Part shown: positions 1 through 27,338 of the stretch, piece after piece
How positions within the stretch are numbered: position 1 is the stretch's first letter
How the letters are laid out: each line of letters starts with the position of its first letter
Notes under the pieces: generated by a model
What the model was told of the DNA's origin: nothing
The model's input: the letters and a program-made list of their open reading frames with translations, nothing else
Database searches by the model: none
Translations under genes and position numbers: made by a program
Assembly: GCF_003428695.1 (NCBI RefSeq)
Contig: NZ_QURH01000211.1
Coordinates: forward strand, 1 to 54,905
Reading direction: 5' to 3'
From: Actinomadura logoneensis
Lineage (GTDB): Bacteria; Actinomycetota; Actinomycetes; Streptosporangiales; Streptosporangiaceae
Length of the DNA: 54,905 bases

Positions 1-1503
1 CACGCCACCCAGGCGGGCGCGGCGGCCCGCTACGCCGAGCAGACCGCGCGCGCCGCCGAGGAACGGCTCGCCGTCGCCCGCACCGCCCGCGAGCTCGCCG
101 AGGCGGCCCTGACCCGGGCCGAGGCGGACGTCGCGGCGACCACGGACCGGATCGGCCAGACCGAGGCCGCGCTCGCCGAGCGCCGCTCGACCGCGGAGAC
201 CGAGAACGCCGAGGACGAGGCCGACCTCGCCGTCGCCGTCGAGGCCGCCGAGCGCTCCCGCGACCAGGTCGCGGCCCTCTGCGGCGACGAGGAGCCCGAC
301 ACCGCCCGGCTCCCCGCCGTCCAGGAGCGCGCGATGTCCCGGATCGAGGAGCTCACCGGCTTCCTCGCCGCGCTCGACGACAGCCCGCACGACGCCGGTT
401 CCGAGTTCGCCCGGACGCTGCTGCGGCGCGCGAGCGTCGTCGGCGGCTCACCGCTCGCCGTCTCGTCCGCCGACCCCGGCGACTTCGACGAACTGCTGGT
501 CACCGGCACCGAGCGGCTGGCCCCGGACGACCTGCTCATCGGCGCCGTCCACGCCCCCCACTGGACCCTGCTCACCGGCCCCACCCCCGAGGACGCGCAG
601 CCTCCCACCGAGGACACGCCCGAATCCCCCGCACCCGCCGCGGACGTACCGGAGTCCACCCCGCACGCCGCGGACACGGCGGACTCCGCTGCACACGCCG
701 CGGACGTGCCGGACTCCCCCGCGCACGCCGCAGACACACCGGACTCCGCCGCGCACACCGCGGACGTGCCGGAATCCTCTGTGGACGCCGACGACGCGCC
801 GTCCGACCCGACGAACGCCCTCCCGTCGTCCGAGCCGTCCCCGGCGCACCTCCCCGCATCACCGTCAGAACCGGCCGACGCGACGCGTCTGGAGCCGCTG
901 CCTACCGACCTGCCGGAGCCGGAGGGGACGGAGGCCACGCATCCCGCGGATCTGCACGCTCCGGAGCCCAGGCCGGCCGACGCCACGCTGGTAGACCTCG
1001 CACCGGTCGATCTGCCGGACGTGGAGCCGGACCCGACACAGGCCATGCGTCCCGCATCCGCCCCCGCCGATCTCCCCGCCCCCGAACCGAGCCCGGCGAA
1101 CGCCACGCAGCCCGCGCCGGCGCCGGCGGAGCTGCACACTTCCGAACCGGGACCGGCCGACGCCACCCTTCCGGAGCCGGTCCTTGCCGACCTGCCGAGC
1201 AACGAGCCAGGCCCGGCCGAAGCCGCGCACCCCGCAGCGGACCCGGCGGATCTGCCCGCGACCGAGGCGAGCCCGGCGGACGCCACCCTCCCAGCGCCCG
1301 TCCCCACAGAGCTGACGGCACCCGAGGCCGGACCGGCGGACGAGACGCTTCCCGCGCCCGCACCCGCGCCCTCAGACCTGGCGGGAGCAGGGGCGACGGA
1401 CGCGACGCTCCCCGCGCCCGTCCCCGCCGACGCCCCCGCCGCTCATCCCGAGGACGTCGCGCACGGCCGTCGAGAGCGGGACTCCTCGAACGACCCGGCC
1501 TAG
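1..1503 (+). CDS. Coiled-coil protein with Ala/Pro-rich repeat tail (5' partial)
   Basis: The frame is open from base 1, so the gene begins upstream and about 500 codons are visible. The first 110 residues are rich in Ala, Glu and Arg with a heptad-like pattern (AEQTARAAEERLAVARTARE), which indicates a long coiled coil. A short less-biased segment with the only Cys follows. From about residue 195 the protein is a low-complexity tail: first 10-residue repeats of the type AADVPDSPAH, then longer repeats built on PADLPxxEPxPADAT. It ends in a basic/acidic stretch. An internal ATG at 334 exists, but the coiled coil before it is plainly coding. No enzyme motif is visible. The role is unknown; a structural or surface/cytoskeletal function is only a guess. 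Confidence 0.75.
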   Translation, partial: HATQAGAAARYAEQTARAAEERLAVARTARELAEAALTRAEADVAATTDRIGQTEAALAERRSTAETENAEDEADLAVAVEAAERSRDQVAALCGDEEPDTARLPAVQERAMSRIEELTGFLAALDDSPHDAGSEFARTLLRRASVVGGSPLAVSSADPGDFDELLVTGTERLAPDDLLIGAVHAPHWTLLTGPTPEDAQPPTEDTPESPAPAADVPESTPHAADTADSAAHAADVPDSPAHAADTPDSAAHTADVPESSVDADDAPSDPTNALPSSEPSPAHLPASPSEPADATRLEPLPTDLPEPEGTEATHPADLHAPEPRPADATLVDLAPVDLPDVEPDPTQAMRPASAPADLPAPEPSPANATQPAPAPAELHTSEPGPADATLPEPVLADLPSNEPGPAEAAHPAADPADLPATEASPADATLPAPVPTELTAPEAGPADETLPAPAPAPSDLAGAGATDATLPAPVPADAPAAHPEDVAHGRRERDSSNDPA

Positions 1504-1690
1504 GCAAGGGCCTGTCTCGAGGGGCCTCGACCACACGCGCGAACGCGTGACCTGCCCGGGGAAGCGAAGCCGGAGGCGAGCGGAGCCGGGCAGATCGCGA
1601 AGCGATGCCGCGTTCGCCCAGGCACGGTCACGTAGCGAGCCCCTGGGCGAGCGGAGTGGGCCGGGGCTGCGATCAACACGGCCTGGAAAC

Positions 1691-8574: not shown

Positions 8575-9051
8575 TCAGTCGATGTCGTAGACGGTCACGG
8601 GGACGCCTCGCTCGACCAGGTGCCGTTCGATCAGCGGTTCCACCTCTGACCAGCGTCCGCCCGCCAGCCCGCAGCCGATGCGCGGCATGTGGACGGACGC
8701 CTCCAGTTCGAGGGCGCGCGCGCCGACGCCGTCCAGGCACCTGCCGAGCGCGTCGTACCGGATCGGCACGCCCTTGCTGCCGCGCTTGGTCCCGCGCTGC
8801 GCGACCATGTTCGCCACGTGGACGTACTGCTCGACCTGGACGAACTGCACCGCGCCGAGGCCGAAGTCGTTCTTCGCCCGGTTCCGGTGCCACTCGCGGT
8901 AGGCGCGCTCCGGCTGGTCCCACCGGCGCGACACGGCGAGCACGAACCCCTTCCCCCAGCCGCCGAGGTCGTTGCAGACGTGCGCGATCACCTTCACGCC
9001 CTTGGCCTGCGGAGAGGTCGCGTCTCCGCGCACATACCGGATCCCGCCCAT
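8575..9051 (-). CDS. Macro domain protein (ADP-ribose hydrolase-like)
   Basis: A 158-aa stand-alone macro domain. The N-terminal strand IRYVRGDAT, the HVCNDLGGWGKGFVLAVSRRW segment (the ADP-ribose-binding Asn and Gly-rich loop) and the later PRIGCGLAGG loop are the characteristic pieces. Macro domains bind or hydrolyse ADP-ribose adducts on protein or nucleic acid, or O-acetyl-ADP-ribose. Which of these applies here is not determinable. The ATG at 9049-9051 was chosen because a TAGTGT -10 element sits seven bases upstream, indicating a leaderless transcript, and because homology starts there. Confidence 0.88.
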   Translation of the reverse strand: MGGIRYVRGDATSPQAKGVKVIAHVCNDLGGWGKGFVLAVSRRWDQPERAYREWHRNRAKNDFGLGAVQFVQVEQYVHVANMVAQRGTKRGSKGVPIRYDALGRCLDGVGARALELEASVHMPRIGCGLAGGRWSEVEPLIERHLVERGVPVTVYDID

Positions 9052-9064
9052 AGCCGGAACACTA
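9052..9064 (-). promoter_or_regulatory. Leaderless-type -10 element of the macro-domain gene
   Basis: On the minus strand TAGTGT is followed by seven bases and then ATG, with no ribosome binding site. Confidence 0.45.
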
Positions 9065-9179
9065 GGCGCAGACTCCGACACCCTCCCGACAAAACCTCCC
9101 AAAAGAGCGTCGCGCGATGCCGCCGAGCCCGCCCACCGACCCAAGGCACCCGTCCGCCCGCTTCATGAGCGCGCGTCCG

Positions 9180-9263
9180 TCAGCGTCGCTTGAGCAGCAT
9201 CACCAGCAGGACGACGAACCCTCCGAGAAGCTCCAGCACTGCGAGGAGCAGCAGGACCAGCAA
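9180..9263 (-). CDS. Tiny hydrophobic protein (possible, start unclear)
   Basis: A 27-codon frame reads as one membrane helix ending in a basic cluster (LLLLAVLELLGGFVVLLVML, then LKRR, stop). The only in-frame start is a TTG without a ribosome binding site. An excellent GGAGGAG followed by TTG lies 31 bases further up, but in another frame. The hydrophobic frame and C-terminus resemble the neighbouring tiny gene at 9379-9492. The gene may be real with a frameshift near its start, or decayed. Confidence 0.35.
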   Translation of the reverse strand: MLVLLLLAVLELLGGFVVLLVMLLKRR

Positions 9264-9378
9264 AACCGAGAAAAGCGATCGACAAGGAGATCTCCTCCTA
9301 CCGGCTGGGGGGGTGAGGGCCGACAAAGTACCGGCCTCGCCTCTTCCGGACGCCTCACCCCCACCCCCGGATCACGCG

Positions 9379-9492
9379 TCAGCGCCGCTTGCTCATCCGC
9401 CCGAACACGAAACCGAGCCCGACCAGCAGGAGCACCCCGCCACCGAGGACGAACAGCAGCAGTAGGACTTCCATGATCCCTAGACCCGCCAC
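9379..9492 (-). CDS. 37-aa single-helix membrane protein
   Basis: GTG start at 9490-9492, with GGAGGAG exactly six bases upstream. The protein begins VAGLGIMEVLLLLFVLGGGV, continues hydrophobic, and ends in a basic FGRMSKRR. One membrane helix with a positively charged C-terminus is clear. An alternative ATG start lies six codons in. It lies upstream of, and in the same orientation as, the similar tiny frame at 9180-9263; both share the GGAGGAGATC leader. No family is recognised. Small hydrophobic proteins of this kind often go unannotated in actinobacteria. Confidence 0.6.
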   Translation of the reverse strand: MAGLGIMEVLLLLFVLGGGVLLLVGLGFVFGRMSKRR

Positions 9493-15250: not shown

Positions 15251-16498
15251 TCAGCTCAAATTATGCTTAGCAAGCCAAGCAGAAACCGCAGACAGCAACC
15301 CAGGGCTATCCTTGAGCTTTTCCTGATGCTCACTCCAAGCATCGCTCATTTTGTCGCGAACAGATGCCACTACATCGGTCAAATTGGCGCCAGTCAATCC
15401 GAAGCGCCGGTCTAGCCTGCTCTCCAGAATTTGGAACGATGCAAGAGAGACTGATTCAAATCGTCGACTGCCGCAGAAGGTCAGCCCAAGATCTTCTCTT
15501 TGTTCGCCCGACTCGTAGTACGGCATAGTCGAAACCAGGTCATAAACCGGCGACAGTGTCGGCATGCGACGGTCGGCATATATTAGCGACCAGTTTTTAA
15601 GATGGGAATCGCCATTGCCGATCATTACTCCAAAGGCAAGGCGCCGAGCAAACTCTTGCAGCGCACCTAGGTCACGCCCTCGATACACCAGTGCTGCGAC
15701 TGTTTCAAAAGATCCTTCATACTTATTCTGGGGGTATTTGTCTCGCACCTGAGCAAGATCTTCAATATGAACGGTGGATCTATTTACATCGGGAAGACGA
15801 TCAAAACGACGTGTCGCGTAAGCCCATTCTTCACTATTAGGCCACATGCGATCTGGAAGACCGCTTAGTTCGTCACGATGTATAAGGCGCACATCAGGAG
15901 TATTGATTCCTACTTCGCGCGCAAGGGACATCATGCAGAACTCATTCCGCGGAACATCCGGGAAGCGATAATCCGGAAACTTGACCAACCAATCTCCACG
16001 CTCGCCTACCGCTGGCACAGTTAGTCGATCACCTCTGGCCAGCATCGAAAATTTAAGCGCAACTCCAGCGAGGGAGAAACGCCAAGGCGAGAGAGCTGAG
16101 GACGAATACTGCTGTGGGTCGGGTATTATTTCACCTAGCGGCCACTGCCAACTCCCATCCGGACCGTCTGCCGGAAATACTTGCACGGCACCTGGCAGGT
16201 CACTACCAACCTGAGCTAGCAACTCCATTTCGCGATCCAGGGCGACATCCCGATCTTGCGCTATCCACTCGCGGAGAGGCCCTTCGGGGAGAAGATTTGA
16301 GAACCAGCGCGGAAGTCGTAAAGCAGAAGCATAAGGGCGACGCAGATTTTCCTCAAAACGCAGTCCCAGAACGGGACGTGAAGGATCTACAACGTAGTCT
16401 TCATTGAACATGAACCTGGTATAGTCGCCTTTTTGGCAGAGAGTGCCGATGCGCTGCCCATGCAACAACACTGCATAATAGTTCTCAGTCAACGCCAT
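15251..16498 (-). CDS. HipA-like serine/threonine kinase (toxin family)
   Basis: A 415-aa HipA-fold kinase. The N-terminal couple_hipA-like region (about 1-110) includes RFSNLLPEGPLRE-type residues (FSNLLPEGPLREW). The kinase core has a Lys in WLVKFP (173), NEFCMMSLAREVGI (185-198) and ATRRFDR (228-234). The catalytic loop is GNGDSHLKNW (294-303, Asp297), and the metal-binding YD (319-320) is in SPVYDLV. HipA kinases phosphorylate targets such as glutamyl-tRNA synthetase and arrest growth. No HipB-type HTH gene is adjacent. Its ATG overlaps the end of the DUF262 gene by 14 bp, so the two are translationally coupled. GC content is clearly below the surrounding chromosome, indicating transfer. 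Confidence 0.85.
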   Translation of the reverse strand: MALTENYYAVLLHGQRIGTLCQKGDYTRFMFNEDYVVDPSRPVLGLRFEENLRRPYASALRLPRWFSNLLPEGPLREWIAQDRDVALDREMELLAQVGSDLPGAVQVFPADGPDGSWQWPLGEIIPDPQQYSSSALSPWRFSLAGVALKFSMLARGDRLTVPAVGERGDWLVKFPDYRFPDVPRNEFCMMSLAREVGINTPDVRLIHRDELSGLPDRMWPNSEEWAYATRRFDRLPDVNRSTVHIEDLAQVRDKYPQNKYEGSFETVAALVYRGRDLGALQEFARRLAFGVMIGNGDSHLKNWSLIYADRRMPTLSPVYDLVSTMPYYESGEQREDLGLTFCGSRRFESVSLASFQILESRLDRRFGLTGANLTDVVASVRDKMSDAWSEHQEKLKDSPGLLSAVSAWLAKHNLS

Positions 16499-18191
16499 TT
16501 GAAGATTCGTCCAGTTCGTCCAGGTCAAGGGAATCAAGCGGCGGAGTGTCCTCGTAATTCCATTCTGCCATTCGAGCAAGGAATGTCGCGAGATTTGCAG
16601 TGACTGCCTCTTGCCGGCGGAGAAGGAACGGTTCTTTGTGGCCCTGTGAGAACAATTTCACAGATGTGCGATCAAGGCAATAGGATATGAGGACGCGCTC
16701 CCAGACGTCATCTTCCATGTCCAACGGTTGTTGGGCTATTCCCTCAAGGAACGTGTCCGCCGAGTCGGTCTCACTTGGCACGAAGAGCCGGTTCGCTGCC
16801 CAGAGCTGCTGGCGACCAGTCAGCCCGTGACGATAGAAACGATGAACTGCCAAGGCTGCCGTGGACTGTTCCGAGAGCAAAGTGGTCAATTCACGAGTAT
16901 CATAAATCTGCCCCGTGACAGGAGAGCGAGGGTTTAGCGCCCACCAGGAACATAGAATAATCTTGCCGACAGCCTCGTTAGTTCGGAAGCGCTCACTATT
17001 AGGAGTGGCTGGATTCGCTTCATTCATTGAATTTATGAGCCCCGTAATTGAGCCCTCCTCGTCGCCTGGCTTTACCAGTGCACAGAGTACGCGGCTCATT
17101 TGTGTGAAGCTACCCTTGAAGACTGTGGGTCCACTCACTGCCACGCGCCAGTAAAAGCGGCGAAGCAGCAGGAGGTTTCGCTCATTGGGATTCGGAAAGT
17201 GGGCGAAGAACCTGGTAAGGACAACAAGAAGTGCCTTGTAGGTGAGCAAAGAGAGGTGCGGGACTCCTGCACTGTTCTGGAGGAAGGTAACTGCTCGGAC
17301 CAGAGCTTGCTCGCCCTCTTCATAAGCGGCATCTTGCTTCTCGCCAGGAAATTCCGGTGCAGTGCGTCGACTGCTGTCGTCGAATTCGCTGCGAATATCG
17401 CGCATCGGGTCCGGGCCCCGCCGAGCCAAAATCGTATGCAACACGGTGTTATCGTCAATGATACCGAACCCAGTACGCGCAGCGACACGCTCCGCAATTC
17501 GAGGGATCGATAGACGATCCGGCGCGCCTTCCTCTGGTCCGGCAAAAAGAGCTGAGAAGATCTCGGCCCTACTAAGCCGCTTCCCATAGTTATTCATCCG
17601 GTCGAAAATATCGGTCAAAATTCGTTCGTCGTGCTGACGGACCAAGTATGCTGGAACCTTATACTGGCGAAGCAGTTTGGCCACACGACGCGCTTCAGGG
17701 AAGTACTCTGAACTCGACTGCCCGGGCCCGGAAAACCAATTTAGCAACTCGTCTAGATCGAAAAGCACCGGAAGTGGAACTTGGCTCGCATCCGGAAACT
17801 TGGGGCAGTCGATAAATTCTCGATTCGCTAGATCATAGTAGATGGAGAATGGAGAATGTTCATTTCCTTTGGGATGAAGAGCATTCGCTAGACTAGTGAT
17901 GCGCTGCTGGCCATCGACAACCCACAGGATGTTGTCCCCGCCTGGCGCATCGATTGAAAGTGAGCCCAATGTAATACGGTCGCGCCCCGACTGGCGAACC
18001 CACAGCAGAAGGCTACCGATGGGGTAACCCTTTATTATGCTGTCGAAGAGTCTAATTACATCCTGAGTACCCCAGCGAAAATCTCGCTGAAAATGAGGAA
18101 CGCGAACTCGTCCGCTCCAGGCTTCGCCCACCAGATCTTCAAGCTCATAAGTTGTTGCGCTTGGTTGTGTATCGAGTCCAGCGGCAGACAT
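16485..18191 (-). CDS. DUF262 domain protein (GmrSD N-terminal-like)
   Basis: A 568-aa protein. The DUF262/ParB-like nuclease-fold motifs are VPHFQRDFRW (31-40) and VVDGQQRITSL (91-101), with the linking FDSIIKGYPIGSLLLW helix between them. This is the N-terminal domain found in type IV restriction enzyme GmrSD and in other phage-defence proteins, where DGQQR binds and hydrolyses nucleotide to drive the effector. No DUF1524 HNH motif is evident in the C-terminal 350 residues, which are helical and unassigned. The low GC content matches the HipA-like gene it overlaps. The ATG at 18189-18191 is preceded by AAGGAAG. Confidence 0.85.
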   Translation of the reverse strand: MSAAGLDTQPSATTYELEDLVGEAWSGRVRVPHFQRDFRWGTQDVIRLFDSIIKGYPIGSLLLWVRQSGRDRITLGSLSIDAPGGDNILWVVDGQQRITSLANALHPKGNEHSPFSIYYDLANREFIDCPKFPDASQVPLPVLFDLDELLNWFSGPGQSSSEYFPEARRVAKLLRQYKVPAYLVRQHDERILTDIFDRMNNYGKRLSRAEIFSALFAGPEEGAPDRLSIPRIAERVAARTGFGIIDDNTVLHTILARRGPDPMRDIRSEFDDSSRRTAPEFPGEKQDAAYEEGEQALVRAVTFLQNSAGVPHLSLLTYKALLVVLTRFFAHFPNPNERNLLLLRRFYWRVAVSGPTVFKGSFTQMSRVLCALVKPGDEEGSITGLINSMNEANPATPNSERFRTNEAVGKIILCSWWALNPRSPVTGQIYDTRELTTLLSEQSTAALAVHRFYRHGLTGRQQLWAANRLFVPSETDSADTFLEGIAQQPLDMEDDVWERVLISYCLDRTSVKLFSQGHKEPFLLRRQEAVTANLATFLARMAEWNYEDTPPLDSLDLDELDESSNGVD

Positions 18192-18493
18192 GGCTTCACG
18201 CTTCCTTCATGAGACATCCCGCTTATAGTGTGCTTTTCCGCTTCATGCGAAGGACAAACTCTAGGCCTAGGACCTTTGCCCGCCAAGCTAAGCACCCTCC
18301 CAAGTATGACACTACGTTACCGCTTGTGAACGTCTTTCGAATGTCTCTATGGCCAGTTGTGGCTCCTGAGGACGGGGAGCGGCCGCGGGAGCCGCGCGCC
18401 TGGCACTCAGGAGGCCGGCGATCGCGGAGCGGGCGCACTTGAAGACGTAGAGAGAGTTCTCATCCGGCTCGGGTGTCACGGGTGTCACGTGGG
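18192..18493. other. Promoter region of the DUF262-HipA pair
   Basis: No gene is seen here. On the minus strand a possible -10 (TATAAG, near 18226-18232) lies about 40 bp before the DUF262 start, with TTCGCA at 18-bp spacing as a weak -35. Around 18470-18490 there is a short GGTGTCACG direct repeat. Confidence 0.4.
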
Positions 18494-19060
18494 TTAGGGC
18501 GTGAGTTTGTGGAGGGCTGTGCGGGTTTGGTCGGCGAGGCTGAGGGCTGCGCCGTGACGGTTGTCGATCGTGGTGGTGATGCCGGGCGGCGGGCTGTCCT
18601 GGAGGGTTGTACTCGTCCCAGTGGTTGAGCTTTCAGGCGTCGCGTGGGGCGTCTCGGGTTTCGATGTAGTCGTGCATGGTGTCGTTGTCGCTGTGGATCC
18701 AGATCGCGGCGACGTCCACGCCTCTGGCCTTGCAGCGGTGGGTGAGGCGGTCCAGCCATCCCGGGGTGTGGAGCTCGGTGGCAAAGGGCGCGGAGACGAT
18801 CATGTAGACGTTGGCGTCGATGTTGGCGTAGGCGCTGTTGAACAGGCACCGGTACTCGTGGGAGCGGATCTCGCGCTGGTAGAGGGTGGTGTGGCGGTCG
18901 TGGGGGTAGCCGCCCAAAGAGATGAGCAGGCGTTCGGTCATGCGACGGGTCATGGCGTCCTTGTCCAGGACGGACCAGCCGGTCATGTCGGACAGGAAGC
19001 GCGCGAACTCGGTCTTGCCTGATCCGGCGTAACCGGCTACCAGGAGCGGGGCCGCGGTAG
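18494..19060 (-). pseudogene. Broken P-loop NTPase/kinase gene (zeta-toxin/AAA-like)
   Basis: The frame carries a Walker A motif (LLVAGYAGSGKTEFARFL), then LDKDAMTRRM, VSAPFATEL and DNDTMHDYIETR. These match small ATP-binding proteins or nucleoside-kinase-like enzymes of actinobacteria. Three lesions are visible. There is no start codon before the first conserved residues, where the gene runs into the integrase start. An in-frame TGA lies at 18633-18635, after which the same frame continues KLNHWDEYN. A frameshift follows, beyond which another frame supplies ITTTIDNRHGAALSLADQ and reaches a TAA at 18494. So the gene is decayed rather than merely short. Confidence 0.75.
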
Positions 19061-19070
19061 CGGTGGTGAC

Positions 19071-20342
19071 GTGGCGGGAACCGCCCTCGCCACCCCCGAC
19101 GAACCGGACCGCCCGAAGAAGAAGCGGAAGGCCGCCAAGAACACGCCCAAGCTCCGCGACGGCGTCATGAAGCGGGGCAACACCTGGTCCTACGTCATCC
19201 GCGTCAAGGACCCCGAGACCGGCATCTCCAAGCCCAGGTGGGTCGGCGGCTTCCCCAGCGAAGAAGCTGCCAAGGAGGCTCGCGACGAAGCACGCGTCAG
19301 AGCTCGCCGCGGCGAGTACATCGACCGGAACCTGATCACCGTGGCCGACTACCTCGATGAGTGGTTGGAGAACCACGCGGTCACGATCAAGCCCAAGACG
19401 CTCTCGGACTACCGGCACCTGATCGATCGCCACGTCAAGCCGCGCATCGGCGGAGCCAAGCTCCAGGCCGTCCGTCCCGCGCAGATCACCAAGCTCTACC
19501 GGGACCTGATCACCGAGGGAGGACGCTCCGGAGCCGGGCTGTCTCCGCGCACCGTCGCCTACGTCCACGCGGTACTTCGAAAGGCGTTCCGGGACGCCGT
19601 GGAAGTGGAGCAGCTCATTCCGTCCAATCCCGTCGAGCGCGCGAAGCGGCCGAAGTCCCGCCCCGGAGAACTGGGCCAGATCTGGACGCCGGACCAGCTT
19701 CGGACCTTCCTCGACCACGCATCGGCTCACCGCCTTTCCGCGTTCTTCCACCTCGCCGCCTACACAGGCGCCCGACGCGGAGAACTGCTCAATCTGCGGT
19801 GGCGGGACGTCGACTTCACCGGCAGCCAGATTTACATCAAAGGCTCGGCCTCATTCGTCGCTGGGCAGCGCATCGAAGGGACGACCAAGAGCGGCCGGTC
19901 TCGCGTGGTCAGCATCGCCCCGGGAACGGTGAAGGTTCTCAAGTCCCATCGGGCCCGGCAGGACGCTGAGCGGCTCCTGGTCGGCAAGGACTGGAAGGGA
20001 GCCGCGGCCCCCGGCGACCGGTACGTCTTCGCCACGGGGTGGGGCGAGCCGATCCACCCCGACACGGTCTCGTCGCTGATGGCGACGCTGATCAAGTCGT
20101 ACAACCAGCCGAGCGAGGGGGAGCCTTCCGCCGAGCCGCTGCCCCGCGTCCGGCTTCACGACCTCCGGCACGTCCACGCCACGACGCTTCTGCTGGCCGG
20201 CGTGGCGGTGCACGTCGTCGCAGCTCGGCTCGGGCACGCGGACCCGTCGATCACGCTCCGGGTCTACGCGCACGTGATCAACGAACAGCTCGCTGAGGCG
20301 GCGGACATCTTCGCTCGGCGGATCGGCGAAGGAATGGAGTAG
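19071..20342 (+). CDS. Tyrosine-type site-specific integrase
   Basis: A 423-aa tyrosine recombinase. The N-terminus is Lys-rich, followed by an AP2-like arm-binding region (WSYVIRVKDPETG, 39-51) and a SAM-like core-binding domain (about 90-185). The catalytic residues are complete: Arg235 in TGARRGE, Lys273, His363-x-x-Arg366 in LHDLRHVHA, His389 in LGHADPS and Tyr399 in RVYAHV. This is the phage/ICE integrase type of actinobacteria. It ends 71 bp from the 3' end of tRNA-Arg and points at it, the usual arrangement for an element integrated into that tRNA gene. The GTG start is provisional. No excisionase gene is seen upstream. Confidence 0.93.
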   Translation: MAGTALATPDEPDRPKKKRKAAKNTPKLRDGVMKRGNTWSYVIRVKDPETGISKPRWVGGFPSEEAAKEARDEARVRARRGEYIDRNLITVADYLDEWLENHAVTIKPKTLSDYRHLIDRHVKPRIGGAKLQAVRPAQITKLYRDLITEGGRSGAGLSPRTVAYVHAVLRKAFRDAVEVEQLIPSNPVERAKRPKSRPGELGQIWTPDQLRTFLDHASAHRLSAFFHLAAYTGARRGELLNLRWRDVDFTGSQIYIKGSASFVAGQRIEGTTKSGRSRVVSIAPGTVKVLKSHRARQDAERLLVGKDWKGAAAPGDRYVFATGWGEPIHPDTVSSLMATLIKSYNQPSEGEPSAEPLPRVRLHDLRHVHATTLLLAGVAVHVVAARLGHADPSITLRVYAHVINEQLAEAADIFARRIGEGME

Positions 20343-20372
20343 GGGGCGCTGTTAGCAAGCCCGTTAGCAAAG

Positions 20373-20401
20373 AAGGCACTTCCGAAGATCGGAAGTGCCT
20401 T
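20373..20401. terminator. Bidirectional terminator between integrase and tRNA-Arg
   Basis: A perfect 13-bp stem (AAGGCACTTCCGA with TCGGAAGTGCCTT) has a 3-base loop. On the minus strand it is followed by CTTT. It sits between the converging integrase and tRNA genes. GTTAGCAA occurs twice just before it. Confidence 0.8.
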
Positions 20402-20412
20402 CTCACCTGTGC

Positions 20413-20484
20413 GCACCCGAAGGGATTCGAACCCCTAACCTTCTGATCCGTAGTCAGATGCTCTATCCGTTGAGCTACGGGTGC
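20413..20484 (-). tRNA. tRNA-Arg (ACG)
   Basis: The 72-nt cloverleaf is complete. The acceptor stem is GCACCCG with CGGGTGC. The D-arm is GCTC..GAGC. The anticodon stem TCTGA/TCAGA has loop CTACGGA, giving anticodon ACG. The T-arm contains GTTCGAAT. The CCA end is not encoded. Its 3' end faces the integrase, so it is the likely attachment site of the island to its left. Confidence 0.96.
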
Positions 20485-21257: not shown

Positions 21258-21350
21258 GGAGGATTCGCCTAGTCCGGTCTATGGCGCCGCACTGCTAATG
21301 CGGTTTGGGTTTACCGCCCATCCGGGGTTCAAATCCCCGATCCTCCGCCA
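21258..21350 (+). tRNA. tRNA-Ser (GCU)
   Basis: A 93-nt class II tRNA with an encoded CCA. The acceptor is GGAGGAT with ATCCTCC, with discriminator G. The anticodon stem CCGCA/TGCGG has loop CTGCTAA (anticodon GCT). A long variable arm follows, and the T-arm GGGGTTCAAATCCCC is complete. Confidence 0.95.
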
Positions 21351-21357
21351 CCTGACC

Positions 21358-21396
21358 AGGGGCTTCGCCGAGAGCAAGATTCTCAGCGGAGCCCCT
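21358..21396 (+). terminator. Hairpin terminator after tRNA-Ser
   Basis: A 16-bp stem (AGGGGCTTCGCCGAGA with TCTCAGCGGAGCCCCT, two G-U pairs) with a 7-base loop starts eight bases after the tRNA. Confidence 0.75.
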
Positions 21397-21847
21397 GTCG
21401 CGTTCCTGAATGCCTGGTTTGATGGGACTGGAGTGCACGTGGTGGGCACAGGATGGCGCCCGCTCCCAGAATCCGCTTGTGGGCGCTCGAGATCGCTACT
21501 CAGCATGTACCGCAGCGAGGCCGCGCAGCGCTGCGACCGTCGCTACCCCCAAGGCCCGCCCGCTCGGTCGCAGCCTCGCCCGCCGGGCTACTCCCCCTCC
21601 CGCCCCTGTTGCGACTGCATCACTCCGCCGACGCCTTCTTGGCTCGTCGCCATGTCACGCGCCTTTCGGTCGGAGACCGAGCATTGGGCGGGTTGCTCGC
21701 GCTTCAGACGCGCACGTTGGCACAGACCCACGGCCGCCCTGTACACGGCACCGTCCCGGAGGAATATCGGCTTGCACGGTGGCGGACGCGGGCCGCCGCC
21801 CACGGAGCGCGTTCCGGGGCGGCGGGTAGGGCGTGGGCGGGTGGGGC
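21397..21847. other. 451-bp gap without recognisable gene
   Basis: Between the tRNA-Ser terminator and the secreted protein gene I see only short open frames with implausible composition on both strands, and no repeats or motifs. Confidence 0.5.
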
Positions 21848-22201
21848 TCAGCCTCTTATCCACTCGCCGTTGCGGCAGGTCCACTTGATGCCGAGCCAGC
21901 TCCAGTCGCTCTCGCCGTCTTGATAGGTGCGGGCGCTGGCGCTGACCCGGCCGAGGACACCGAATCCTGACACCCAGATGCAGGGTTGACCGTCCGCAAC
22001 AAGGGCTCGACGCTTGGTCGGGTCGTCGTCGGGGACCACGCACTTCTTGAGCTTGGAGAAGAAGATCTCGTCTTGGCGGGGACACTCCGGGTCGTCGGCG
22101 GCGCGGGCGGACGCACCGGTCGCCACGGCTCCGGTCGTCAGCGCCGCCGCCACCGGCAGAGCGGCCGCCACAGCGGCGATCCGGCGTCTCATCTTTGACA
22201 T
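21848..22201 (-). CDS. Small secreted protein with four cysteines
   Basis: This 117-aa protein has a clear signal peptide: MSKMRRR, a hydrophobic Ala/Val/Leu stretch, and cleavage near ASARA-ADDP. The mature part, about 80 residues, has four Cys (PECPR, KKCVV, QPCIW, WTCRN), likely two disulfides. It contains Trp-rich strands near the end (SDWSWLGIKWTCRNGEWIRG). No family is recognised with confidence. A perfect 13-bp inverted repeat sits eight bases upstream of the start. It lies near another small secreted four-Cys protein, in the same orientation. Confidence 0.75.
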   Translation of the reverse strand: MSKMRRRIAAVAAALPVAAALTTGAVATGASARAADDPECPRQDEIFFSKLKKCVVPDDDPTKRRALVADGQPCIWVSGFGVLGRVSASARTYQDGESDWSWLGIKWTCRNGEWIRG

Positions 22202-22208
22202 TCTTCTG

Positions 22209-22247
22209 CCTCACTCTCTGTTGTCGGTCTGACTACAGAGAGTGAGG
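22209..22247 (-). promoter_or_regulatory. Perfect 13-bp inverted repeat before a secreted-protein gene
   Basis: CCTCACTCTCTGT (22209-22221) and its exact reverse complement (22235-22247) flank a 13-base gap and end 8 bp before the ATG. It could be an operator or a leader hairpin controlling translation. Confidence 0.6.
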
Positions 22248-22664
22248 TTCCCTGATCGGGGCGGAATCAACCTGGATGGCGGAGGCGGCCGGTCCCAGCG
22301 GGGGGATGAGCTGCCGCGATCTCTGGACGCGTGAGTGACTCCGAACGCGCAGGGCGGCCGGGCTCGCCGGGTCTGGTCGGTTGGAGCTTCTGGTCATTCA
22401 CAGACCGGTGAGCACGGCCGTGGCCGGGTGACGGTGGAGGCGCTGCGAGTCTCTGCTCGAATGATCGCCGCCGGGGTTCCGGGTGCGGACGACGGACGGC
22501 GGCGGTGGACCGCATCGATCTGCCGAGTGGCCTCGCGGAGTCCCGAACCGAGCGTCCGCTGGACGCCTCCGGGGCGGGCAGGAGCCTCGTTGCCAGCGGT
22601 CGCCGAGACTCGGGCCCGCCCTGCCGGGCTGGCGGCGCTGAGCACCTGCGCGGCGTTGGAGGCG
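22248..22664. other. 417-bp gap without recognisable gene
   Basis: No open frame here has a plausible start, ribosome binding site or composition. It presumably carries the promoter of the gene at 21848 and the 3' end of the hydrophobin-like transcript. Confidence 0.5.
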
Positions 22665-22970
22665 TCAGCAGAGCACGGTGGTCTCCCGACCGAGCACGAT
22701 GAGCCCGTTGATGTTGTTGGTCGCGCAGAAGTTGTGCTGGTTCGGGGCGGGCGCGGGGACGCAGTTGAGGCCGACGGGCTGGCCGGTCGGCTCAAGGACG
22801 ATGCCGAACAGGCCGGCCAGCGTCTTGGTGGAGCCACTGACCTCCTTGTGGATCTGCATGCACCGCATCGGCTGCCCTTCGGCGTGGGCGGCGGTGGCGG
22901 TGAGCGCCGTCGCGGCGCACGCCGCCAGCAGGGCGGTCGCGCAACGGCGAGGGATCGAGGTCGTCAGCAC
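22665..22970 (-). CDS. Secreted hydrophobin-like protein
   Basis: A 101-aa protein with a signal peptide (1-30, cleavage after AHA) and a 71-residue mature part. Its core reads TLAGLFGIVLEPTGQPVGLN-Cys70, a Pro-rich loop, Cys82, then ATNNINGLIVLG. That order, LxGLxGIVL, VGLxC, then NxNGLIxLG, is the pattern of fungal class I hydrophobins (PF01185), which coat aerial structures with amphipathic films. Fungal proteins have eight Cys; here there are four (37, 70, 82, 101), and the usual Cys after GLIxLG is Arg95. The GTG start follows AAAGGGA. It could be a bacterial hydrophobin relative or convergent. Its likely location is the cell surface. Confidence 0.7.
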   Translation of the reverse strand: MLTTSIPRRCATALLAACAATALTATAAHAEGQPMRCMQIHKEVSGSTKTLAGLFGIVLEPTGQPVGLNCVPAPAPNQHNFCATNNINGLIVLGRETTVLC

Positions 22971-23379
22971 GGAGTGTCCCTTTCTGTCGACTGCGCTGGG
23001 CACCCTCCCATCTATGCCCCCACCCTGGAGCGATGACACTGTGTAGTTGCCTTGTGATGCTAGGTCCTCTCGGGTGTTTCGAGTCCCCGAGACCTGGCGG
23101 CGGGCCGGATCGTTGCTCTGGTCGCCCACTGCCGCGCCGAAGGCTCGTTCGTACCGGGGCGCAGATGGAGTTGTTGCGGAGGGCTTGTTGGCGCTGCTGG
23201 TCCTGATGGGCGGGTGGGGCGGTAGGGCGGGGAGACGGGCTTCGGGCTCCTCGGCGAATGCGTCTGGGGCGAAGGGGGCGTCCTTGCGAGGACCGCTCCA
23301 GAGTTGAGATAGCTGGTGGCCGGTCCAGGCCCTGGGCGGCGGCGCAACCGGGGGGGCGGGGCGGCGGCGTCCTTAGGGC
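22971..23379. other. Gap upstream of the hydrophobin-like gene
   Basis: No gene is seen. On the minus strand a possible promoter (TGTCAT, 17 bp, ATAGAT) lies about 60 bp before the hydrophobin-like start. The rest is featureless. Confidence 0.4.
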
Positions 23380-24151
23380 GTGGAGTGGCGCATCGACGGG
23401 TTTGAGGAGATTCGCGAGCTCGGGCGTGGCGGGCAGGGGCGGGTGGTGTTCGCCCGGCATGCCGTCTCGGGTGACCTGGTGGCGGTCAAGTACCTGCTCG
23501 CGAGTTCCGGGGCGGGTGCCCGCGCGGTTCCGGGAGGAGGCCGTCCTTTTGGGACGGGTCCGTGACGCGCACGTCGCGCGCCTGTTCCAGCTGGTGGAGG
23601 GCGAGCGGGGGCTCGCGCTGGTGATGGAGGCCGTAGATGGTGTCTCGTTCCGGGACATCCTCGACCGGTACGGGACGCTGGCGCCGGAGGCGACGTTGGC
23701 GGTTCTGAAGGGGTCGCTCCTCGGCTTGGCCGCCGCGCACGCGGCCGGGGTCGTGCATCGCGACTACAAGCCGTCCAACGTGATCGCCCCGGCGGGCGGA
23801 CTTCTACGTCGCCAGCCGGTACACGCCCAACGACACGTTCGCCTCGCGCTTCTTCCAGGACGAAGGCATGAGCTGTCCCGCCCACACCACGCTGCGCGTG
23901 GGCGCGGCGGCTTACGGAGCGCGCCAGACCGTCGACAGGTCTGCGCGGATGGGCACTCGCACAGCGCGCTACATCGAGTGGTCGGTTCCCTGTGGACGCG
24001 TGACTACAGCCGGGACGGCTATTTCAAGACGCGAACGTCCACCACCTACACCGAGCGGATCTGGTACCTCCCCGCCTCGGAGATCGTCATCGCGGACTTC
24101 TGGCGCACCCCCGACCTGGAGAACATCCTGGCCAAGGCGATCTGGACCTGA
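23380..24151 (+). pseudogene. Ser/Thr protein kinase pseudogene
   Basis: The frame opens FEEIRELGRGGQGRVVFARH, then VAVKYLL: the Gly-rich loop and ATP-binding Lys of a Hanks-type kinase. At about 23515 the frame breaks. RFREEAVLLGRVRDAHVARL, LVMEAVDGVSF and the catalytic loop VVHRDYKPSNV continue in another frame. Kinase sequence stops right after this loop: no DFG or APE region exists. A third frame then reads ADFYVASRYTPNDTFASRFF to about YIEWSVP, and a final shift gives DGYFKTRTSTTYTERIWYLP, ending LENILAKAIWT. So the kinase domain is internally deleted, fused to an unrelated C-terminal region, and carries at least three frameshifts. No functional kinase can be made. Confidence 0.75.
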
Positions 24152-24307
24152 CGCCGGGGTGATGTGGTGCTCGTCCGCGGGCAGGCCGGTCGTGGTGAGG
24201 GCGGCGGACCGTCTTCAGGTAGCGCCACGTGCTCGTCGGCATTGGGCCGGCGCGGCTGAGCGGCTGCCGCCTCGCGCCTGGGTGGGCGCGAGGCGGCGGC
24301 TCTCTCG

Positions 24308-24652
24308 TCAGGCCGATTCGAGGATCGGGCGGATCTCGATGGTTTCCGGGGTCGGGAGGGACTTGGCCAGTTGGACGGCCTCGTCGCGGTCGGCCACCTC
24401 GACCACGAACCAGCCGCCCAGGGTTTCCTCGGTGGTGTGGGCCGGTTCGTCCGCCGTGGTGGCGGTGCCGTCGGCGGGCTTGCGGACGGTGACCGGGGTG
24501 GCCTCGGTGTCGAGGGCCTCCCCGCCGACCAGCTTGCCGGCGGCGGCTATCTGGCCGATCCAGGTCTGGTACTGCTCGCGGTAGGCGGCGCGGTCGGACT
24601 GGATGGCGCGGCGGGAGGCATCCGTTTCGAAGATGACCAGGGCGAATCGCAT
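24308..24652 (-). CDS. YCII/DGPF-domain protein
   Basis: A 114-aa stand-alone YCII-related protein. The N-terminal strand MRFALVIFE, the central TWIGQIAAAGKLVGGEALD and the C-terminal GGWFVVEVADRDEAVQLAKS with EIRPI match the DGPF/YCII ferredoxin-like fold. These proteins often sit beside VOC proteins, sigma factors or regulators; their chemistry is poorly known. It lies 12 bp downstream of the VOC gene in the same direction, so the two form an operon divergent from a TetR gene. Confidence 0.9.
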   Translation of the reverse strand: MRFALVIFETDASRRAIQSDRAAYREQYQTWIGQIAAAGKLVGGEALDTEATPVTVRKPADGTATTADEPAHTTEETLGGWFVVEVADRDEAVQLAKSLPTPETIEIRPILESA

Positions 24653-24664
24653 GGGGGTGTCCTT

Positions 24665-25042
24665 TCAGGCGGTCCACTGGACGAACTGGACGATCACGCC
24701 GTTGGGGTCGGTGACCTGGAACAGGCGCTCGCCCCAGGGCTCCTCGCGCAGCGGCATGGTGATCTCGACTCCGGCCTCGCGGAGCAGCTTCTCCTGCTCG
24801 TCCAGGCCGTCGGCGAGGGTGAAGGCGAGAATCAGGCCGGCGGCGCGCCGGTCGCGCTGCTCGGGCGGGAGCACCTCGGTGCCGCGGGCCAGCAGGACGA
24901 TGTCGAACGCGTCGGGCCGGGTCAGGGACGCGAAGCCGTCGGCGGCCTGCTGGACCGTGTAGCCGAGACGGGTGGTCAGGAACTTCTGCGAGGCGGCGAC
25001 GTCGTCGACGGTCAGCGAGACGGTGGAGGCGGTGAACTGCAC
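24665..25042 (-). CDS. VOC family protein (glyoxalase/bleomycin-resistance fold)
   Basis: A 125-aa vicinal-oxygen-chelate protein with two beta-alpha-beta-beta-beta modules. The first starts TVSLTVDDVAASQKFL. The second contains PLREEPWGERLFQVTDPNGV, then QFVQW, with the PWGxRxFxVxDPxGN-type signature and a final metal-ligand-like position. Reactions include dioxygenation, isomerisation and antibiotic binding; none can be assigned here. The GTG start with AAGGAG seven bases upstream was chosen over longer frames. It is part of the minus-strand set 25238-24308, controlled presumably by the divergent TetR protein. Confidence 0.9.
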   Translation of the reverse strand: MQFTASTVSLTVDDVAASQKFLTTRLGYTVQQAADGFASLTRPDAFDIVLLARGTEVLPPEQRDRRAAGLILAFTLADGLDEQEKLLREAGVEITMPLREEPWGERLFQVTDPNGVIVQFVQWTA

Positions 25043-25076
25043 GGGTCTCCTTGTGCTGGAGGGGAGGGACGGGGGG

Positions 25077-25238
25077 TCAGTAGCCGCGTCGGCGCGGGAC
25101 GAGGCGGACGCCCTTGGCCTGCTGCCGGCCGCGGGCCCGCTGGTCGGACGGGAGGCGGCGCAGTTCGGCGCCGCGCGTCCGGGGGCGGGGCGCGGCGGCG
25201 GACTCGACCGCGGCGAGGTCATGGGTGTGCTTGCGCAT
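25077..25238 (-). CDS. Small basic protein, 53 aa
   Basis: ATG with AGGGGGA six bases upstream. The sequence begins MRKHTHDLAAVESAAA and continues with many Arg/Pro/Gln (TRGAELRRLPSDQRARGR), ending PRRRGY. It is strongly basic, has no hydrophobic segment and no recognised domain. It lies 34 bp upstream of the VOC gene in the same orientation, directly under the divergent palindromic operator. It is therefore probably the first gene of the VOC-YCII operon. A spurious frame cannot be excluded in this high-GC context. Confidence 0.5.
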   Translation of the reverse strand: MRKHTHDLAAVESAAAPRPRTRGAELRRLPSDQRARGRQQAKGVRLVPRRRGY

Positions 25239-25267
25239 GGGCGTCCCCCTTGAACATCGAGTTCCAT

Positions 25268-25285
25268 CGTCGCAAACTTGCGACG
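25268..25285. promoter_or_regulatory. 18-bp palindrome, probable TetR operator
   Basis: CGTCGCAA-AC-TTGCGACG has perfect 8-bp arms. It lies between the divergent small-protein/VOC/YCII operon and the TetR gene, and is the best candidate for the binding site of that TetR protein. Confidence 0.7.
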
Positions 25286-25317
25286 GAGGTAAATTTAGCC
25301 TGAGGGGTTCGGTGGTG

Positions 25318-25353
25318 TCAACATAAAGATGCTACGAGGGTAAGATTCCGCCC
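25318..25353 (+). promoter_or_regulatory. Leaderless promoter of the TetR gene
   Basis: TCAACA, a 17-bp spacer, TAAGAT (25341-25346), then seven bases and ATG. No ribosome binding site is present. Confidence 0.55.
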
Positions 25354-25992
25354 ATGGCTACTCCAATGCCCGTCCCCGGCCTGCGCGAGACCAAGAAGCA
25401 GGAGACCCGGCAGCTCATCTCCGACCATGCGACCCGGCTGTTCATCGCCCAGGGCTTCGAGCGGACGACGATCGCCGAGATCGCCGCCGCCGCCCGCGTC
25501 GCCAAGAAGACCGTCACGAACTACTTCGCCCGCAAGGAGGACCTGGCCCTGGACCATCAGGAGGAGTTCGCCGCGTCCCTGGCCGGCGCCATCGGCGGAC
25601 GCGCCGCAGGGGAGTCGGCCCTGGCCGCGCTGCGCCGCGCGTTCGCCGACGCCGTCGCCGCCCGGGACCCGGTCGCGGGCTTCTCGGGGCCGGAGTTCGC
25701 CCGCATGGTCGCCGAGAGCCCCACCCTGACCGGTTGCCTGCGCGGCCTGCACGACCAGCGCGAGCACCATCTCGCCCTGGCGCTCGCCGAGGCCACCGGG
25801 GCGGAGGCCGACGACATCACGGTCCGGACCGCCGCCGGCCTGCTCGGGACCGTCCACCGGGTGCTGTTCCACCGCATCCAGGCGCTCACGCTGGCGTGCC
25901 GTTCCAACGACGAGATCGCCGAGATCATCGGGGCGGAGGCCACCCGGGCCTTCGACCTGCTCGAACCCTCTCTGGGCGAGTACGCGGCCTGA
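25354..25992 (+). CDS. TetR/AcrR family transcriptional regulator
   Basis: A 212-aa regulator with a standard N-terminal TetR helix-turn-helix (about residues 15-60: LISDHATRLFIAQGFERTTI, then IAAAARVAKKTVTNYFARKEDL). A helical ligand-binding domain follows. It is divergently oriented from the basic protein/VOC/YCII operon across a perfect 8-bp-arm palindrome, so autorepression and control of that operon are likely. The ATG was chosen by the leaderless promoter seven bases upstream. The ligand is unknown. Confidence 0.92.
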   Translation: MATPMPVPGLRETKKQETRQLISDHATRLFIAQGFERTTIAEIAAAARVAKKTVTNYFARKEDLALDHQEEFAASLAGAIGGRAAGESALAALRRAFADAVAARDPVAGFSGPEFARMVAESPTLTGCLRGLHDQREHHLALALAEATGAEADDITVRTAAGLLGTVHRVLFHRIQALTLACRSNDEIAEIIGAEATRAFDLLEPSLGEYAA

Positions 25993-26238
25993 GCCGGCCG
26001 GCGCTCCGCGCCCATCGTCCGGAGGTCGGGGGCGCGGAGCACGGAGGCCAGCGGTCGTGCGCGGCGACGTCGTTCAGGCCGCGCGGTTCGCTTGCCGGTC
26101 AAGGGACGGCATGGGCGGCAAAGGTGCGGCTGGGATGCGGCGATGAGAACGGCACGAAGCCTCCCGCGATCGTCCACGGGCCGCGGATTCGCGGCTGAAT
26201 AGGGATGAGGAGGCGGACGCGCGGGGGGAGGCGCTGCG

Positions 26239-27240
26239 ATGCTGATCGCGGGGCCCGTGTCACCGATGCTCGCGGCCACGGTCGATCGCATCCCCGACGG
26301 GAGGATGGCGTTCGAGCCGAAGTGGGACGGCTTCCGCGTCCAGGTGCGGGTGGGGCCGGACGGGCGGGTCGAGCTGTATTCGCGGGCGCTGGCACGTCTG
26401 ACGGCGCTGTTCCCGGAGACGGCCGCGGCGGTCGGACGGCTGGTCCCACCGGGGACCGTGCTGGACGGTGAACTGGTCCGCTGGGCGCCCACCGGACGGC
26501 TCGACTTCGAGGTTCTGCAGCAACGGCTTCGCGGCGGGACGGGACGGGCGGCCGCGCAGGCGCGTGAACGTCCGGTGCACGTGGTGGTGTTCGACGTGCT
26601 CGAGACGGCCGGCGAGGGGGACGTGCGCGGTCTCCCGTTGCAGCAGCGGCGGCGGATTCTGGAGGGGCTGTTCGCGGACGCGCCGCCGGACGGGCTCGTG
26701 GTGCTGACGCCGCAGACCGTCGACCGGGGCGAGGCCGAACTGTGGCTCGAGGTGCTGACCAGCCAGGGCATCGAGGGGTTGGTGATCAAGCCGCTGGACG
26801 GCGCGTACCTGCCGGGACGGCGGCGGTGGTTCAAGCTGAAGCGGCGGTGGACGACGCTGGCGGTCGCGGGCGGGTTCCTCGGGTCGTTCGACGCGCCGAC
26901 CGGGCTGGTGATCGGGCGCGTCTTCCCGGACGGGCGGATGCGCATCACCGGACGCACGTCCGCGCCCGCGCAGCCGCTGCGGCGGGGGCTGGCGGCCGAG
27001 CTGGCGGCGCGGTTCCCGGCGCCGCCGGAGCATCCGTGGCCGGACCGGCTCGCGCCGAACTGGCACGGCGAGCAGCCCGAACCGATCCTGTACCACCGGA
27101 TCCGGCCGGACCTGGTGGTGGAGGTGTCCGTGGACGTCGCCACCGAGCGTGACCGGCGCTGGCGGCATCTGGCCCGGCTGCTCGACGTCCGTGGGGATCT
27201 CGACCCGGCGGACGTGCCGCGCGGGCTGGATCTGGAGTGA
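26239..27240 (+). CDS. ATP-dependent DNA ligase (LigC-like)
   Basis: A 333-aa nucleotidyltransferase plus OB-fold ligase, about the size of mycobacterial LigC and of the ligase domain of LigD. The nucleophile is Lys28 in motif I (EPKWDGFR). Motif III (VLDGELVRW), motif IV (GIEGLVIK) and motif V (WFKLKRRWTT) are intact. The C-terminal OB domain runs from about residue 215. It lacks polymerase and nuclease domains, so it is a stand-alone ligase. Such enzymes act in short-patch base excision or end-joining back-up repair. ATG was taken as the start; RBS-like GGGGGAGG lies 10 bases upstream. No ku gene is nearby. Confidence 0.93.
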   Translation: MLIAGPVSPMLAATVDRIPDGRMAFEPKWDGFRVQVRVGPDGRVELYSRALARLTALFPETAAAVGRLVPPGTVLDGELVRWAPTGRLDFEVLQQRLRGGTGRAAAQARERPVHVVVFDVLETAGEGDVRGLPLQQRRRILEGLFADAPPDGLVVLTPQTVDRGEAELWLEVLTSQGIEGLVIKPLDGAYLPGRRRWFKLKRRWTTLAVAGGFLGSFDAPTGLVIGRVFPDGRMRITGRTSAPAQPLRRGLAAELAARFPAPPEHPWPDRLAPNWHGEQPEPILYHRIRPDLVVEVSVDVATERDRRWRHLARLLDVRGDLDPADVPRGLDLE

Positions 27241-27338
27241 ATCCGACTCGTCCGGGATCGGGGCACAAGGGGGGATCCGGTCCATCATTTGACCACTCTG
27301 AGTAATCTGTCAGTGACTTGTTGCATATGGTCGGGTGC

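Follow-up and report, generated by a model that had tools for sequence, protein, structure and literature searches.

A four-cysteine hydrophobin-like protein in Actinomadura logoneensis and six-cysteine hydrophobins in other actinobacteria

Hydrophobins are described as unique to the fungal kingdom (PMC3364958) and as exclusive to fungi (PMC7827705) in the parts of these papers that were available, which also give the fungal disulfides as C1-C6, C2-C5, C3-C4 and C7-C8. In Streptomyces, chaplins render aerial mycelium and spores hydrophobic (excerpts of PMC3079736 and PMC5314377). A SapB-deficient mutant of Streptomyces coelicolor reportedly regains aerial growth with the fungal hydrophobin SC3 (PMC4255298, in part, citing Kodani 2005), indicating that a hydrophobin is able to fill this role in such a cell. 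Hydrophobin-like regions were reported in mycobacterial kinases in 2005 (excerpt of PMC1262709), and a structure search found hydrophobin-like domains in an alga, a diatom and a plant (PMC12375992, in part). No report of small PF01185 proteins in actinobacteria was found among the papers listed in searches of the open-licence literature, and databases may hold uncommented bacterial hydrophobin entries.

Here, these systems are compared with a gene from Actinomadura logoneensis, carried on a contig of 54.9 kb and 71.8% GC that also holds bacterial genes and tRNAs (the window, meaning this whole stretch of DNA). With a probability of roughly 0.6, its product (the window protein) is a diverged relative of the class I hydrophobins that has four cysteines, would be secreted and is predicted to form an amphipathic film at the air-water or cell-surface interface. 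Following up this protein uncovered clear six-cysteine hydrophobins in actinobacteria. Proteins of this phylum that score above the family cut-off contradict the fungi-only view of hydrophobins, and would imply that mycelial organisms of two kinds have the same coat protein by descent, beyond the analogy with chaplins.

The gene, its cysteines and its surroundings

The preliminary description of this locus, in which a signal peptide is followed by TLAGLFGIVL, VGLN-Cys and Cys-ATNNINGLIVLG-Arg, is exact when read by eye against the translated frame. The mature protein, 71 residues long, reads EGQPMRCMQIHKEVSGSTKTLAGLFGIVLEPTGQPVGLNCVPAPAPNQHNFCATNNINGLIVLGRETTVLC, and its features are collected in Table 1. 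GC content at the three codon positions of the frame is 0.618, 0.539 and 0.931. An overlapping plus-strand frame (22678-23046) has a third-position GC of 0.878; because both frames are GC3-rich, the choice of strand cannot rest on GC alone, and the minus strand was chosen for its signal-peptide-like start, the AAAGGGA before the GTG and the homology described below.

Table 1. Features of the hydrophobin-like gene and its surroundings in the window
Feature	Position	Strand	Basis or remark
CDS of hydrophobin-like protein	22665..22970	minus	101 aa, GTG start, stop included
Likely signal peptide	22881..22970	minus	residues 1-30, end A-H-A; by eye
Mature protein (putative cleavage)	22668..22880	minus	71 aa, four cysteines
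Ribosome-binding-site-like GAAAGGGA	22977..22984	minus	by eye; AAAGGGA 6 nt 5' of GTG
Cys at C3 position	22860..22862	minus	alignments
Cys at C4 position	22761..22763	minus	32 residues after C3
Cys at C7 position	22725..22727	minus	alignment, spacing
Arg at C8 position	22686..22688	minus	12 residues after C7
C-terminal Cys	22668..22670	minus	6 residues past C8 position; could replace C8
Stretch aligned to fungal hydrophobin profile A3	22689..22865	minus	profile positions 8-74 of 82
tRNA-Ser(gct)	21258..21350	plus	conservation with five relatives ends near here
Variable stretch holding the gene	21460..27255		blastn, five genus relatives

The cysteines of the mature protein lie at residues 7, 40, 52 and 71, with no CC doublet. 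Alignment to fungal cores bore out the earlier reading that four of the eight hallmark cysteines are absent and that an Arg follows GLIxLG. As C1, C6, C2 and C5 are missing, two whole fungal bridges are gone; what remains would be the C3-C4 pair plus C7, for which the C-terminal cysteine may serve as a new partner. C3 and C4 are 32 residues apart, as in 111 of 118 fungal cores, and the 12-residue spacing of C7 and C8 found in all 118 is kept up to the Arg, while the stretch from C4 to C7 counts 11 residues versus 19 in 114 of the 118. By the eight-cysteine criterion with its C2C3 and C6C7 doublets the protein thus lies outside the family, whereas the order and spacing of its C3-C4 and C7-C8 segments are those of a hydrophobin. 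Its GRAVY value of 0.08, compared with 0.72 +/- 0.14 for the fungal cores and 0.88 for the actinobacterial protein L104 (see below), stands at the low end of the range of 0-1 given for the family (excerpt of PMC12375992).

The gene sits in a stretch that differs between relatives. A blastn search with this stretch gave no match in sequences fetched from five relatives of the genus; beside tRNA-Ser(gct), conservation extends to 21362-21372 in four of them and to 21458 in the remaining one, and it picks up again at 27256 in a single relative. Likewise, tblastn with eight ORFs or fragments from 21.8-27.2 kb, including the target, found none of them in the five fetched stretches (17.7-19 kb). Two relatives have a second tRNA-Ser 3' part some kilobases on, followed in one of them by the window's sequence to 21459. 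Such a duplicated 3' part is the mark of an integration site or island at this tRNA; the window itself has no such repeat. The att-like second copies were seen at 6395-6563 of L090 and 4172-4251 of L091. In 65 genomes of the genus searched for an ortholog, a match better than E 0.008 was obtained only in the protein's own genome, and a shared-word search of 5.8 billion proteins returned no relative.

Several neighbouring features were recorded. A 117-residue, secreted-looking protein with cysteines (21848-22201, minus strand) has no Pfam match and a weak, sub-threshold NCBIfam match to WGxxGxxG, and was not found in the stretches fetched from the five relatives. Pieces that by eye resemble a broken kinase, together with a second fragment, occupy 23380-24151 between the target and a YCII gene, with no Pfam match for the parts given. 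The interval 15251-20484 holds a HipA-like gene and a GmrSD_N (DUF262) gene, whose GC at third codon positions is close to 0.5, as well as a phage-type integrase that adjoins tRNA-Arg, and looks like an integrated defence-type element. The genome also has a chaplin array on another contig (C894), with eight domain matches in one frame of 1056 residues (G000:C894:5968-7392), which we take to be unusually long.

These features bear on the main rival reading, under which the protein descends from hydrophobins and no longer acts as one, being either a decaying relic or a secreted protein with another role. The loss of two bridges, the shortened C4-C7 loop, the low GRAVY, the occurrence in a single genome and the location within a variable stretch, close to broken kinase-like pieces, would all fit such a history. 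Against it, the frame is intact, with a signal-peptide-like start and high third-position GC, and the cysteines that were kept include the fungal C3-C4 bridge as well as C7 with its possible substitute partner. Class I assembly, moreover, may not need cysteine bridges at all (PMC12375992, in part). A relic or repurposed protein is accordingly judged unlikely, if by no means negligible.

Likeness to the hydrophobin family

The preliminary description had likened the protein to the class I hydrophobin core and proposed a check with PF01185. Pfam itself gave a near miss: PF01185 (Hydrophobin) is the best match of the window protein, at 17.4 bits and E 0.0071, below the curated gathering cut-off of 23 bits. 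Since four other matches in 396 genomes of the phylum score alike (16.4-17.8 bits), the Pfam score alone is not proof. Mushroom-type hydrophobins, in contrast, gave a clearly significant result. A fungal-only profile was built from the 118 of 120 fungal hydrophobins that have the full eight-cysteine core; the named members of the 120 are presumably all from mushrooms and their kin, and five are without names. This profile scored 25.8 bits against the whole protein (p 5.8e-10) and 27.7 bits against the mature part (p 1.5e-10), compared with 0.1 for the reversed sequence. None of 19,870 scored shuffles (20,000 made) reached the mature score, the best being 17.2 bits.

Other measures gave the same picture. 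The best Smith-Waterman score was 99, compared with a maximum of 72 over 1,500 full shuffles (Gumbel p 5e-7) and of 70 over 1,500 shuffles that kept the cysteines fixed (Gumbel p 4e-7). The N half, from C3 to VGLNCVP, scored 20.6 bits, as high as none of 19,713 shuffles, and the C half 9.7 bits, a score reached by 15 of 19,709. With cysteines masked, the mature part still scored 14.4 bits (p 2.1e-6). HHalign against 16 fungal cores gave the window protein a probability of 96.3%, compared with 0.2% for the secreted-looking neighbour. A profile made solely of the five actinobacterial proteins described in the next section scored 24.4 bits (p 1.6e-9), as high as none of 19,879 shuffles (best 19.8). 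Pairwise likeness to two of these five is weaker, with a BLASTP E of 0.025 to L104 and Smith-Waterman p values of 5e-5 to L104 and 3e-4 to L105.

Six-frame genome searches with the same 16 fungal cores (profile A3) placed the window protein at the top by bit score among the matches listed, both in 65 genomes of the genus (20.4; next 16.2) and in 394 genomes of the class (20.3; next 18.4), the latter with at most 14 candidates scored per genome. By E-value in the class search, the window protein is slightly outranked by a match that contains three stops and comes from a 1.5-Mb genome (0.0038 vs 0.0048). Weak matches from the phylum search (the four mentioned above, L036-L039) and the class search (L061-L063) do not, on reading, resemble secreted hydrophobins, and two matches in 345 genomes of the order (L102 and L103; E 5.4e-4 and 0.005) were rejected, both being antisense to long frames. 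Searches with the window protein gave no match in the PDB by phmmer at E 10, none in NCBIfam, nothing useful among genome contigs, phages and viral contigs, and one chance-level match among plasmids (Bosea, E 4).

The protein might instead be an unrelated small secreted actinobacterial protein whose hydrophobic pattern resembles that of hydrophobins by chance or convergence. The Pfam score does lie within the chance range of the 396 genomes, the case was picked by eye out of many proteins, and a single-sequence structure model was poor (pLDDT 47.8) and without a significant structural match, to hydrophobins or otherwise. A second model resembles the hydrophobin SC16, but it was derived from a fungal alignment and hence is biased. 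Set against this are the shuffle tests with two profiles that both leave the window protein out, the match of both halves in order and spacing, and the existence of true hydrophobins in other actinobacteria. For this window alone, about 2e-4 such matches would be expected, given p 1.5e-10, about 50 genes and 24,736 Pfam families. Coincidental likeness is therefore considered improbable. The window protein falls outside the canonical hydrophobins, as it misses both the Pfam cut-off and the eight-cysteine rule, but it is very likely a reduced descendant of hydrophobin stock.

Six-cysteine hydrophobins in other actinobacteria

The resemblance first noticed in motifs read by eye is supported as homology by these statistics and, decisively, by five actinobacterial proteins that pass the PF01185 cut-off. 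A profile of the window protein and three fungal cores, run against 341 genomes of the taxonomic family, gave matches at E <=0.1 in 29 of them: the genome of origin, two strong cases and 26 weak ones. The strong cases are L104 (48.1 bits, E 1.2e-11) and L105 (46.5 bits, E 3.6e-11), both 123 residues long and secreted-looking by eye. They score 55.2 and 54.0 bits with PF01185, and phmmer matched L104 to solved hydrophobins at a best E of 3.9e-6. Their contigs are collinear, with 73-74% GC and flanks 87-91% identical; the two genes differ at 36 of 369 bases, and the dN of 0.055 and dS of 0.248 suggest purifying selection. Among the six weak matches that were read (L106-L111), L110 alone may be a broken hydrophobin. 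Its frame of 53 residues (1498-1656, minus strand; G960:C45) holds CEQNNVGGLIAIGC, which resembles a hydrophobin's C-terminal half. No intact N-terminal counterpart stands in frame with it, and it may be a broken remnant in the genus to which L104 and L105 belong.

PF01185 run over 150 genomes of another genus gave three proteins above the cut-off, namely L125 (55.6-56.4 bits), L126 (27.2-27.4) and L127 (25.3). Over 89 residues L126 is identical to part of NZ_CP109451.1, a linear plasmid of Streptomyces sp. NBC_01471, which identifies the genus as Streptomyces. On that plasmid, the hydrophobin ORF (L143, 7902-8270) has a GGAGG start signal and adjoins a carotenoid oxygenase family gene. The plasmid's table, which is incomplete, gives no CDS for it, and the flanking tags RS02660 and RS02665 seem consecutive; the gene is probably unannotated. 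The L127 gene (L142, about 8617-9430, minus strand) lies directly before a gene that by eye encodes what we take to be a secreted pectate-lyase-like protein, an arrangement that recalls fungal hydrophobins cooperating with plant-surface enzymes.

By alignment, all five have the six cysteines C2C3, C4, C5, C7 and C8. C1 is absent and the C6 position is held by M, M, V, Q and E in L104, L105, L125, L126 and L127, respectively, so that one fungal disulfide pair is missing. In L127 the last two cysteine spacings are longer (7 and 15 vs 6 and 12). All five therefore lie outside the eight-cysteine criterion while passing the 23-bit Pfam cut-off, and a profile made from them scores every one of the 118 fungal cores at 46-77 bits. 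Such genes look rare, since searches of 99 relatives and of 396 genomes of the phylum gave nothing above the PF01185 cut-off. Plasmid searches with L104, L125 and L127 gave no match, and NCBIfam gave none for L104 and a chance-level one for L105. A single-pattern scan of genome contigs for hydrophobins confirmed none, which is no evidence of absence, as L104-type proteins exist in genomes.

Fungal contamination of the assembly, which the mushroom hydrophobins found as closest sequences might suggest, is in effect refuted by the context of the contig: the gene lies among bacterial genes and tRNAs at high GC, the contig's tRNA side is conserved in five genus relatives, the single open frame has a third-position GC of 0.931, and L104/L105 and L126 stand on collinear bacterial contigs and a complete Streptomyces plasmid, respectively.

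Origin, proposed function and known systems

The gene family is more likely to have passed from fungus to bacterium than the other way, given that the family is broad in fungi and rare in the bacterial genomes searched. A tree of 39 rows, with good support for two of its 36 inner branches, does not group the bacteria together: four changes are needed, at least two of them forced by supported branches, and the bacteria form one group in 0 of 200 bootstrap trees. A supported branch (96/93) joins L104/L105 with two Coprinopsis proteins, which would fit more than one transfer from mushrooms but may be an artefact. The tree was set aside as evidence because of its low support, its unsettled bootstrap and its bacterial rows, which are long and of odd composition.

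If the window protein is a working hydrophobin relative, it would be exported by means of the signal peptide read by eye and fold as a minimal hydrophobin core. C3 and C4 would pair as in fungi and C7 with the C-terminal cysteine instead of C8, bridges C1-C6 and C2-C5 having presumably been lost pair by pair. Adsorption to the air-water interface or to the wall would then give an amphipathic layer, possibly supplementing the genome's chaplins on aerial hyphae or spores. A broader proposal, which we advance tentatively and would not yet bet on, is that actinobacteria have a hydrophobin lineage of their own, with six cysteines and the C1-C6 bridge dropped, thinly spread across Streptomyces and further genera, located in part on plasmids and tRNA-side islands, and held in common with mushrooms through gene transfer. 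In that case the window protein would be its most reduced form, a minimal natural core that retains C3-C4 and a rebuilt C7 bridge and works alongside chaplins on aerial surfaces. A natural series of eight, six and four cysteines would offer a test of which disulfides the fold and the film need, and actinobacterial hydrophobins could serve as compact surfactants for production in bacteria.

Among known systems, chaplins (PF03777) and rodlins of Streptomyces are secreted actinobacterial surface proteins, as proposed for the window protein. PF03777 is absent from its Pfam matches up to E 10, where weak matches above about 0.1 were mostly filtered. BslA and YweA of Bacillus subtilis, so-called bacterial hydrophobins, are film-formers by function; they have an immunoglobulin-like fold and are called non-canonical (excerpt of PMC12375992), and the window protein has no Pfam or PDB sequence match to BslA. 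The kinase, alga, diatom and plant cases are regions of larger or other proteins, unlike the small secreted actinobacterial proteins above the Pfam cut-off. The closest likeness is to the Basidiomycete class I (class IB) hydrophobins (PF01185), such as SC3, Vmh2 and SC16, which share with the window protein a small size, the C3-x32-C4 spacing and, in the same order, LxGLxGIVL, VGLNCxP and NNxNGLIVxG. The window protein differs from them in its four rather than eight cysteines, the Arg at C8, the bacterial host, a C4-C7 stretch shorter by 8 and a much lower hydrophobicity. L104, L105, L125, L126 and L127 resemble it in being bacterial, secreted-looking by eye and built on the C3..C4..C7 frame without C1 and C6, but they have six cysteines, keep C2, C5 and C8 and score above the Pfam cut-off.
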